51,577 nucleotides of DNA from positions 1 to 51,577 of the forward strand of contig JAMFRN010000244.1 of NCBI GenBank assembly GCA_026224805.1, in the 5' to 3' direction. Made by a program: the position numbers and the translations under genes. The notes under the pieces are model-generated. The model saw nothing but the letters and a program-made list of their open reading frames with translations. It did no database searches and was not told the origin of the DNA. The DNA is from Nevskia soli (GTDB lineage Bacteria > Pseudomonadota > Gammaproteobacteria > Nevskiales > Nevskiaceae). Every line of letters starts with the position of its first letter. The first letter of the stretch is position 1. Below, one piece after another: positions 10,086 to 45,720 of this stretch.

Positions 10086-10187
10086 CAGTGGTTGGTGGTT
10101 AGTGTCGGAGTGGAAGTTGGAGGTTGCGAAAGGATGGGGCTGGATCGAGCGCAAACTAATCACTGACCACTAATCACCAACCACTTC
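10086..10187. repeat. heptad inverted-repeat element A
   Basis: Left arm C-AGTGGTT-GGTGGTT-AGTG, right arm (reverse complement) AGTGGTT-GGTGATT-AGTGGTC-AGTGATT-AGT. Confidence 0.85.
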
Positions 10188-11910: not shown

Positions 11911-11989
11911 TAGTGGTTGGTGATTAGTGGCTAGTGGTTAGTAACAGCAACCGCGAAATTCCGCCGCTTCTACTGACCACTAACCACTG
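11911..11989. repeat. heptad inverted-repeat element B
   Basis: Left arm AGTGGTT-GGTGATT-AGTGGCT-AGTGGTT-AGTA, right arm tactgaccactaaccactg. Confidence 0.85.
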
Positions 11990-11991
11990 TT

Positions 11992-16838: not shown

Positions 16839-17951
<1,113 letters not shown>

Positions 17952-17955
17952 ACAA

Positions 17956-18121
17956 GCAGTTTCCAGTTATTGGTGGCCAGTTTCCAGTAAAAGCGGGGTC
18001 GCTCGGCAGGTGTCGGGCAGCTGTTTTTCCTTGTAGCCAGCGGGCCACGGTAAGGGCAAAATCAGTGCGCCGGTTGCGGCGCAACGAAACTGGAAACCGG
18101 CAACTGGAAACCGACCACTGC
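17956..18121. repeat. heptad inverted-repeat element D
   Basis: Left arm GC-AGTTTCC-AGTTATT-GGTGGCC-AGTTTCC-AGT, right arm (reverse complement) GC-AGTGGTC-GGTTTCC-AGTTGCC-GGTTTCC-AGT. Confidence 0.75.
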
Positions 18122-18122
18122 T

Positions 18123-19172
18123 TTGAACACGCTTAGCGACGCAGCCCGCAAAACGCTGTTTCCCCGTGGCATCGGCCTGGGGCTGAAATACCTACTCTTC
18201 GCCGTCCTGTCGATCGGCCTGATGGTCACCGATCACCGTGGCGACGCGCGCCTGCGGCCGATCCGGGATTGGACTGCGCGCGCCCTGCAGCCAATTCTAT
18301 GGCTGACTTCGCTGCCGCAGGCCACCTTCAATCTTGGCGACCATTTCCGCAGCCGCGAAGCGCTGCTTATCGAAAACCAGGCCCTGCATCAGAAGCAGCT
18401 GGAGCTGGAAGGTCGGCTGCTGCGCCTGGACGCGCTGGAAGCCGAGAACGCGCGCATCCGCGAACTGCTGTCTTCCGCCGCCTCGCTGCAGACCCGCGTG
18501 CTGATCGCGGAGATCATGCAGGTGAGCCAGGAGCCCTACCGGCAGATCGTGCTCAACAAGGGCGAGCGAGACGGCGTCTACAAGGGCCAGGCCCTGGTCG
18601 ATGCCGACGGCATCATGGGCCAGGTGATGCAGGTCAACCCCGGCAGCAGCGTGGCCCTGCTGGTCACCGACCTGGACAACAGCGTACCGGTGGAGATCAA
18701 TCGCACCGGCCTGCAGACCATCGCGCGGGGCCGCGGCGACGGCCAGACCCTGTCGCTGCCCTTCCTGCCCGGCAATGCCGACATCAAGGTGGGCGACCTG
18801 CTGGTGTCCTCCGGGCTTGGTGGGCGCTTCCCGCCCGGCTACCCGGTGGGCAAGATCAACGAACTGCGCCATCCGGCCGGCGAAAGCTTCATGGAAGGCA
18901 TCGCCTACCCCACCGCCCGGCTCAATCAAGGCCACCAGGCCCTGCTGGTGTGGTCGGAACGCCCGGCGCTGGCGGCGGAGCCGGAACCCGCGGTCGAGCG
19001 CCCCGCCGACGCCAGCGGCAATACCGCCGCTAACGCCAAGGCAGCGGCGGCTGCGCCGAGCAAGCGCGACACCACGGCCGCGCACAAGCTCGAGACCCCG
19101 CAGAAGACCCCCGCACCGGCAGCAGCGCCCGCGCCGGCCAAGCCCGCCACTCCAGCCGTGCCGCACCGATGA
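18123..19172 (+). CDS. mreC: rod shape-determining protein MreC
   Basis: Position after mreB, N-terminal TM then coiled coil, MreC-like core; TTG start inferred. Confidence 0.92.
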   Translation: MNTLSDAARKTLFPRGIGLGLKYLLFAVLSIGLMVTDHRGDARLRPIRDWTARALQPILWLTSLPQATFNLGDHFRSREALLIENQALHQKQLELEGRLLRLDALEAENARIRELLSSAASLQTRVLIAEIMQVSQEPYRQIVLNKGERDGVYKGQALVDADGIMGQVMQVNPGSSVALLVTDLDNSVPVEINRTGLQTIARGRGDGQTLSLPFLPGNADIKVGDLLVSSGLGGRFPPGYPVGKINELRHPAGESFMEGIAYPTARLNQGHQALLVWSERPALAAEPEPAVERPADASGNTAANAKAAAAAPSKRDTTAAHKLETPQKTPAPAAAPAPAKPATPAVPHR

Positions 19173-32654: not shown

Positions 32655-32741
32655 GTAGGATGTGCTGAGCGTAGCGAAGCGCATCGTTTACCGCGATACG
32701 GTACTCGATTGATGCGCTTCGCTACGCTCAGCACATCCTAC
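32655..32741. repeat. long inverted repeat, perfect 31-bp arms
   Basis: gtaggatgtgctgagcgtagcgaagcgcatc ... gatgcgcttcgctacgctcagcacatcctac, with inner hairpin taccg-cgata-cggta. Confidence 0.95.
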
Positions 32742-44084: not shown

Positions 44085-44789
44085 TTGAACTTCGCCGCAC
44101 TCAGCCCCGAGCTGTGGGCCTCGCTGTGGCTGACGGTACGGCTAGCAGGCACTTCGACTCTGATCCTGCTAGCGCTCGGCCTGCCGCTGTCCGGCTGGCT
44201 CAACCGCTCGCGCTCGCACGCGGCGCCGCTGGTGGAAGCGCTGGTGACCCTGCCGATCGTACTGCCGCCGACGGTGATCGGCTTTTACGTGCTGCTGCTG
44301 CTGGGCAGCCACAGCCCGATCGGGCGCGGCTGGCTGGCGCTATTCGGCACCTCGCTGGCGTTCAGTTTTTCCGGGCTGGTGGTCGGCTCGGTGATCTACA
44401 GCCTGCCCTACGCGGTGCAACCGATGCAGTCGGCGCTGCGCGAGGTCGACCGGAATCTGATCGAGGCCGCCTTCTCCCTCGGCGCGCGCACCCGCCAGGT
44501 GTTCTGGAAGATCATGGTGCCGGTGGCGCGTAACGGGATCATCACCGGCGGCGCGCTATCCTTCGCCCACACCATGGGTGAGTTCGGCGTGGTGCTGATG
44601 CTCGGCGGCAACATTCCCGGCGTAACCCGCGTCGCCTCCATTGCACTGTATGACGAGACGCAGAAACTCAACTACAGCGTGGCGCACACCTACGCGCTGC
44701 TGCTGCTCTGCTCATCCCTGGTCATGCTGCTGTTCATCGCCTGGCTCCGCCAGCGCACGCCCGCGCCGGCCCGGCCGCAGCCGCGGTGA
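44085..44789 (+). CDS. modB: molybdate ABC transporter permease ModB (orphan)
   Basis: LPIVLPPTVIGFYVLLLLG, ARNGIITGGALSFAHTMGEFGVVLMLGGNIPG; TTG start. Confidence 0.87.
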   Translation: MNFAALSPELWASLWLTVRLAGTSTLILLALGLPLSGWLNRSRSHAAPLVEALVTLPIVLPPTVIGFYVLLLLGSHSPIGRGWLALFGTSLAFSFSGLVVGSVIYSLPYAVQPMQSALREVDRNLIEAAFSLGARTRQVFWKIMVPVARNGIITGGALSFAHTMGEFGVVLMLGGNIPGVTRVASIALYDETQKLNYSVAHTYALLLLCSSLVMLLFIAWLRQRTPAPARPQPR

Positions 44790-44791
44790 AG

Positions 44792-44878
44792 CAGTGGTTA
44801 GTGGTTAGTGGTTAGTGGTTAGTCGGTAGAATCCCGTCAAGCTTTTACTAATCACTAATCACTGGTCACTAACCACTG
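44792..44878. repeat. heptad inverted-repeat element C
   Basis: Left arm C-(AGTGGTT)x4-AGT; right arm actaatcactaatcactggtcactaaccactg; 32-nt arms, 23-nt core. Confidence 0.95.
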
Positions 44879-44892
44879 AACCGGAGCGCCCG

Positions 44893-45720
44893 ATGCCTCT
44901 CAAGATCCATCACCTCAACTGCGGCACCATGTGTCCGCACGGCAAGCGCCTGATCAACGGCCACGGCGGCCTGTTCGAGAGCGGCGAGATGTGCTGCCAC
45001 TGCCTGCTGATCGAGAGCGCCGACGGCCTGGTGCTGGTGGACACCGGTCTGGGCACCGGCGATGTGCGCAATCCGGCCCACCTCGGCGCCGCCTTCGCCG
45101 CCATCACCCGGCCGCGGCTGGTGATGGAAGAGACTGCCCTGCACCAGGTGCAGGCGCTGGGCTTCAAGCCGGCAGATGTGCGCCATATCGTCGTCACCCA
45201 CCTCGATCTCGACCATGCCGGCGGCCTGCCGGATTTCCCCGAAGCGCAGGTGCACGTGTTCAAGCCCGAGCATCACGCCGCGATGGCGCGCCCCAGCCTG
45301 GGCGAGAAAGGCCGCTACCGGCCGGCCCACTTCGCCCACCGGCCGAAGTGGGTGATGCACGAGACTCAGGGCGAGAAGTGGAACGGCTTCGACAGCATCC
45401 GCACCCTGCCCGGCAGCCGCGACGAAATCCTGCTGGTGCCGCTGATCGGGCACACGCGCGGGCATTGCGGCGTGGCCGTCAACACCGGCAATGGCTGGTT
45501 GATGCACTGCGGCGACTCCTACTTCTTCCGCGAAGAGGTCAATCCCCAGCATCCCCACTGCACGCCGGGACTGCGGCTGTTCCAGAATCTGGTGCAGATC
45601 GACGGCAAGCAGCGGCGGGCCAACCAAGTGCGGCTGCGCGAGCTGGTGGCCGCCAAGGGCAAGGAAGTGGAGCTGTTCTGCGCGCATGATCCGGTGGAGT
45701 TGGCGCGGTACGCCGCTTAG
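44893..45720 (+). CDS. MBL-fold metallo-hydrolase
   Basis: VVTHLDLDHAGGLPDFPEAQVHVF, IGHTRGHCGVAV, MHCGDSYF. Confidence 0.85.
   Translation: MPLKIHHLNCGTMCPHGKRLINGHGGLFESGEMCCHCLLIESADGLVLVDTGLGTGDVRNPAHLGAAFAAITRPRLVMEETALHQVQALGFKPADVRHIVVTHLDLDHAGGLPDFPEAQVHVFKPEHHAAMARPSLGEKGRYRPAHFAHRPKWVMHETQGEKWNGFDSIRTLPGSRDEILLVPLIGHTRGHCGVAVNTGNGWLMHCGDSYFFREEVNPQHPHCTPGLRLFQNLVQIDGKQRRANQVRLRELVAAKGKEVELFCAHDPVELARYAA

Follow-up and report, generated by a model that had tools for sequence, protein, structure and literature searches.

Inverted heptanucleotide arrays behind bacterial stop codons as a possible class of inserted DNA hairpins with interchangeable words

Among the repeats described between bacterial genes, REP / BIME elements and the GTAG- and CGTC-tagged repeats have a sequence that is common to the whole repeat and are linked to a Y1 transposase family (RAYT), and cyanobacterial STRR repeats consist of 7-nt tandem units that generally lie in direct arrays. 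Rehm et al. 2015 (PMC4692102) described heptamer repeats in Xanthomonas (GGGAATC) and Nostoc (GGGGAYT). Xanthomonas has 70 and 75 closely spaced convergent GGGAATC pairs that form inverted repeats, and the repeats are intergenic, lie between aligned ORFs less than 50 bp from stops, are under-represented between divergent ORFs, and are described as quadruplex-forming sequences defined by their G-tracts. Another heptamer, TAACTGA, was described in marine Beggiatoaceae, Cyanobacteria and Bacteroidetes (MacGregor 2015, PMC4679880), where it is intergenic and close to gene boundaries and repeats 2-6 times in direct orientation, only a single case in the genome described there being inverted; it is reported from a few lineages only. 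Heptad words have so far been reported singly and explained by properties of the word itself, such as quadruplexes or a start-codon regulator.

The window analyzed here, a 51,577-nt stretch of Nevskia soli DNA, contains an inverted heptad array that we call element C. Its 5′ arm (44792..44823, plus strand) reads C-(AGTGGTT)x4-AGT over 32 nt and is a 100% repeat in TRF with a score of 62. The loop (44824..44846, 23 nt, no strand) ends at its 3′ side in AAGCTTTT, which bears a GCTTTT motif common to other copies, and the 3′ arm (44847..44878, minus strand, 32 nt) reads (C)AGTGGTT AGTGACC AGTGATT AGTGATT AGT on the minus strand. An earlier note, made from the same DNA, had described 32-nt heptamer arms around a 23-nt core, and we confirm its coordinates as well as the pairing of 27/32 positions (84%), with all five of the five mismatches being G.U or U.G in the plus RNA. 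It had also placed the element 3 nt behind modB and 14 nt ahead of an MBL gene. These gaps match the ORF ends at 44789 and 44893: upstream is the stop codon of an ABC transporter permease gene (44085..44789, plus strand; PF00528, consistent with ModB), and downstream the ATG of a gene for a metallo-beta-lactamase fold protein (44893..45720, plus strand; PF00753). The minimum free energy is -48.2 kcal/mol for the plus strand and -36.6 kcal/mol for the minus strand, with z-scores against shuffled sequence of -6.4 and -5.2. At one and the same stringent threshold, the real window yielded one inverted period-7 array and 40 dinucleotide-shuffled windows yielded none. Rfam models searched against the whole window gave no match at the gathering threshold.

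Element C and its relatives share features with each described system. The Xanthomonas GGGAATC repeats have the same layout and gene-boundary preference, with convergent inverted pairs near stops that are rare between divergent genes, and GGGAATC elements also occur in the genus and family of Nevskia soli. However, AGTGRYY heptads have at most GG and so lack the G-tract of at least three that defines the GGGAATC repeats. Element C differs from the TAACTGA repeats in its AGTGGTT word and in its paired inverted arms, as opposed to direct arrays, yet the word class overlaps, as TAACTGA is the reverse complement of TCAGTTA, that is, the heptad AGTTATC, which fits the AGTKDYY class. Cyanobacterial STRR repeats and the heptad hairpins both have 7-nt tandem units, a likeness assessed through the Nostoc GGGGAYT case of PMC4692102. 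Like REP / BIME elements (for the REP / RAYT system, see PMC2817692, PMC3733652), the heptad elements are short, dispersed and palindromic, lie between genes after stops, and have many copies per genome; unlike them, their loops vary from copy to copy, and we found neither a Y1 gene in the element's own genome nor one flanked by heptad arrays. Like MITEs, they are short and non-coding, end in inverted repeats and have relatives in which the site is empty, but their interiors are not shared, and we found no autonomous partner and, in the flanks considered, no target-site duplication. The claim of the earlier note that element C is not a named element stands only in part: the inverted GGGAATC pairs of Xanthomonas (PMC4692102) have the same layout, and TAACTGA (PMC4679880), in direct arrays, fits the same heptad class. 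In the literature searched, which lay mostly outside subscription journals, we found neither AGTGGTT, GAGAGGC or AGTTTCC arrays as bacterial repeats nor a report of word replacement at orthologous sites, and the part of PMC4692102 considered does not mention word replacement, an arm-length rule or a cross-phylum class. Inverted heptad arrays are partly known already; what is new is an unexpected unifying property across words.

Three further elements in the window, proposed by the earlier note as members of the same family, are all real. Elements A (10087..10185) and B (11912..11990) are inverted AGTGRYY heptads, and in element D (17950..18125), where both AGTTTCC and AGTGGYC heptads occur, the loop is ~100 nt long and partly consists of intergenic sequence found in congeners too; none of the three is assigned a strand. 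A degenerate heptad pattern search extended the family to ~18 AGTGRYY-heptad elements in the window's genome (G000), nearly all of them facing pairs, with more in relatives and across phyla. The backwards-pattern control of this genome search was uninformative because the heptad reads alike backwards. In a word-free scan for inverted arrays by period over 665 kb of congener G011, period 7 gave 17-20 arrays, whereas periods 5, 6, 8, 9 and 11 gave 0-1 each, and the 4-7 entries at period 10 represent a separate decamer family with arms near 30 nt. These decamer arms, GGTC-CGCAAATGAA-CGCAAATAAA-CGCGAAT (~30 nt), face each other as the heptad arms do, often have an inner AAAAGC-like motif, and are found in G011 at L340:582-656, L371:2446-2531, L375:9890-10010 and other places.

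The period-7 pairs have a strict polarity and a preferred length. Facing order was forward-first in 26 pairs and reverse-first in none, with GGGAATC, AGTTTCC, GAGAGGC or AGTGGTT as the word standing first. Four heptads make up 72 of 131 AGT-type 5′ arms across phyla and 19/21 of the GGGAATC type. Variation between heptads is almost entirely limited to transitions at positions 5-7 with AGT kept, which is partly a product of how the search was constructed. In the genus of Nevskia soli, AAGC often adjoins the arms on the outside and AAAAGC on the inside, and the flanks carry AAGC/GCTT as an inverted and not a direct repeat. A peculiarity of the GGGAATC arms is their third heptad, which is GGGGAAT or GGAGAAT in 14/33 arms, suggesting that arms are copied as units. 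Apart from their motif ends, loops are mostly unrelated between copies, and simple copying of whole elements is therefore unsupported.

Position relative to genes, based on gene calls from a longest-ORF heuristic, is also constrained. Between co-directional genes an element lies at a median of 5 nt from the stop codon, with 80% of elements within -17..+16 nt and the stop codon inside the array in 27%. Convergent pairs are well represented, with a median of 7 nt from either stop, and none of the divergent gene pairs had an element in G011 (0/87) or G000 (0/43). Among the cross-phylum matches listed, divergent genes flank 13 of the 108 elements that were classified. Such a placement, with convergent pairs well represented and, in the genus of Nevskia soli, inner AAAAGC...GCTTTT and outer AAGC...GCTT motifs, might be expected of a bidirectional intrinsic transcription terminator. 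We consider this very improbable: the element is followed by TTTT in just 6% of flanks between co-directional genes and 15% of those between convergent ones, and elements are found within ribosomal-protein operons and phage morphogenesis regions. The low frequency in co-directional flanks in particular argues that most elements are not intrinsic terminators. A supply of stop codons in all frames was also rejected as a common rule, since many AGTG words provide them but GCGAGAG-type words contain none.

To compare orthologous sites, the flanks of element C and 17 further G000 elements were located in four congeners (G001, G006, G008 and G011). Nine of the 53 comparisons gave an empty site, defined as a spacer of <45 nt, and 17 gave an inverted heptad array, with a different word in most. 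The element C site is empty in G006, where the spacer is 25 nt; site C5a is empty in G001, G006 and G008 (8, 26 and 6 nt), and G008 also has empty sites at C101 (8 nt) and C153 (26 nt). Words found at the congener sites included GGGAATC, GAGAGGC, GTGAGAC and AGTTTCC, and a different word was present in at least one congener for A, C5a, C5b, C56, C153, C181 and C190. At the element A site, for example, G008 has GTGAGAC heptads and G011 GAGAGGC heptads, and site C121 carries AGTGGTT in G000, GCGAGAG in G001, GGTGAGG in G008 and CGGGAAT in G011. The AGTG word and part of the loop are kept at C190 in G001 and C265 in G006. In G011, 8/13 sites were occupied (7 without a borderline case) as opposed to 12/488 ordinary gene pairs (Fisher p = 5e-8; 8e-7 with a base rate of 20/488). 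Because the C5a words differ between G000 and G011 and the site is empty in the three other congeners, we favor independent arrival at a favored site over common descent. The presence of unrelated words in one architecture at shared orthologous sites argues that the choice of word is unimportant.

Sites were also compared in another genus of the family, where G034 and G077 have 7/9 GGGAATC elements in common and most coding flanks are 93-97% identical. In G076 and G023, which gave no matches to the GGGAATC pattern, sites E2, E3 and E9 are short empty spacers where checked. At site E7, G023 and G076 have a canonical terminator (GGGGCGGCTGAAAAGCCGCCCCGTTTTTTT), whereas G034 and G077 have the heptad element (L439 vs L461, L472).

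AGTG-type pairs are present in 3/17 congeners, and a search of 43 more genomes from the family and order gave none, with a reversed-order control near zero. With one genome per species, the same heptad pattern gave at least 119 stretches over many phyla, including Bacteroidota, Planctomycetota, Acidobacteriota, Chloroflexota, Cyanobacteria, Armatimonadota, Gemmatimonadota, Firmicutes, Nitrospirota, Patescibacteria and others. Viral contigs contained 55 stretches in heptad order versus 0 reversed, and genes for terminase, portal, head-tail connector or tape-measure proteins mark some of the element-bearing contigs as real phages. One viral contig (L378:343-6447) has 8 elements in 6.5 kb, with nearly every gap filled. 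On L378, L391 and L427, AGTG-type hairpins occupy nearly all gaps of a morphogenesis region and neighboring elements carry differing sub-words (AGTGGCG/AGTGGTG), and in an Acidobacteriaceae contig (L163:304-7248) four gaps in a row within a ribosomal-protein/rpoA operon region each have an AGT-type element.

The earlier note had read element C as a strand-asymmetric RNA stem, a description that holds for element C itself but fails for the family. Among co-directional gene pairs, the 71 elements had 81 G.U versus 88 A.C mismatches on the sense strand (20 elements versus 29, p = 0.25), and the one-sidedness within elements was at chance level, so that a sense-strand G.U preference is not supported as a family trait. 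Covariation was likewise not significant, as heptads in 40 equal-arm elements were no closer to their pairing partners than to other opposite-arm heptads (z = 1.5). The G.U pattern of element C is best read as chance, because its uniform AGTGGTT 5′ arm puts all transition mismatches, which fall at positions 5 and 7, on the same side. Selection for an intercistronic stem nevertheless remains the main rival explanation, although we judge it unlikely. It holds that a hairpin between cistrons or at the 3′ end is kept at the RNA level to block an exonuclease, to be cut by a double-strand-specific RNase, or to uncouple translation, and the word would be irrelevant provided that a ~30 bp stem forms. 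The location straight after stops, even inside ribosomal-protein operons, is consistent with this, as are the very stable stem, the orthologous sites that keep elements despite different words, and the plain terminator in place of an element at E7. Against it, in addition to the missing partner matching and G.U preference, many sites are plainly empty in relatives, and heptad-free orthologous sites are only slightly enriched for other stable hairpins (p = 0.036), which makes the proposal that any hairpin will do at these sites a weak one.

A role for each heptad as the site of a DNA or RNA regulator, of the kind suggested for the TAACTGA repeats, with the inverted pairing arranging the bound protein, would explain arms that are near-constant at ~30 nt and the preservation of AGT with transitions at positions 5-7 that vary independently of the partner arm (partly by search construction), and the published TAACTGA arrays do lie just upstream of start codons (PMC4679880). 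We think this protein-binding reading improbable, since the unrelated words at the same congener sites would require a conserved regulator to shift specificity repeatedly and no protein family is linked to the elements. We give very little credence to a writing mechanism, in which heptads would be added by telomere-like, template-directed synthesis at a break, on both of its 3′ ends, before the break is closed. This would account for the strict facing polarity, the unique loops, the fixed arm length, the genome-specific words and the transition-type variation, but there is no candidate enzyme, reverse transcriptases do not track the presence of elements, and the third heptad of GGGAATC arms points to copying of arms.

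Candidate enzymes were sought and none was linked to the arrays. Reverse transcriptases show no correlation with the elements and none was found in G011, G015, G001 or G077. A Y1 transposase was rejected because PF01797 is not found in G000 (84% complete) and Y1 is present in genomes without these elements; in addition, none of 32 Y1 loci of relatives was flanked by heptad arrays. A four-helix-bundle/S23 protein was set aside as PF05635 had no match in G000, a weak result given that the search matched nowhere at all. ORFs within 3 kb of the 119 listed elements comprise only common families, such as ABC ATPases, and no autonomous copy of the element was found.

We propose, at about even chance, that element C belongs to a widespread class of inserted, non-coding DNA hairpins that is REP/MITE-like in behavior and built from interchangeable heptads. 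Such a hairpin would consist of two ~30-nt arms, usually of four 7-nt words plus 2-3 nt, facing across a variable loop, and would be confined almost entirely to positions behind stop codons, where ~80 bp of extra DNA is presumably least harmful. Each genome would use one or a few words, and different words would colonize, or displace each other at, the same few 3′-end sites with arm length and orientation kept. Spread would occur at the DNA level, with the arms as recognition or pairing units for a putative host or mobile activity, and the mRNA stem would be mainly a by-product that may have been recruited locally. The presence and absence of elements at sites, the phage copies, the fixed polarity and arm length, the genome-wide words and the repeated use of particular post-stop sites agree better with a class of DNA insertions than with an RNA element maintained by its pairing. 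The mobilizing step is something we infer, as loops are not common to copies and neither a linked enzyme nor a target duplication was found; the lack of a general RNA role is likewise inferred. Re-use of one site by different words could alternatively reflect in-place rewriting or selection for a hairpin there. The occurrence of unrelated words at shared sites points to a common and very widespread process that makes or spreads inverted heptad hairpins behind bacterial genes, phages included. A stronger version, which we regard as unlikely, is that one kind of DNA activity, common to many phyla, puts inverted arrays of 7-nt words in place or rewrites them at fixed sites after stops; arms would always be ~30 nt long and always face each other, and the lineage-specific word could be replaced in place. 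If true, GGGAATC, TAACTGA, AGTGGTT, GAGAGGC and GTGAGAC would be words of one system and not separate repeat families.

Several additional observations concern the loops and neighboring palindromes. Orthologous GGGAATC loops of two close species align better when one is inverted (L436/L479, L437/L491, L443/L495); between G034 and G077 the inverted match is seen at E6 and E9 and is weaker at E2, with loops that are short. This is suggestive only, and inverted loops would indicate strand exchange between arms in DNA, with the loops flipping. An inverted repeat, TCATTCCGAGCGCAGCGAGGAATC, is nested in the loops of GGGAATC elements at L290 and L351:7773-7969, from which it appears that different palindromic families gather at the same sites. 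At the site of C132, which has heptads in G000, G001 has an inverted array of ~8-nt units (GCAAAGCC/GCAGAGCC; L291). In the window itself, a 31-nt sequence, GTAGGATGTGCTGAGCGTAGCGAAGCGCATC, is repeated perfectly in inverted orientation across a 25-nt loop at 32655-32741; it looks like a GTAG-tagged palindromic (REP-type) repeat of a family other than the heptads. The window also has a perfect 18-nt hairpin at 1789-1828 (AAAAAGGCCCGTCGCGGG/CCCGCGACGGGCCTTTTT) that is a typical bidirectional terminator.
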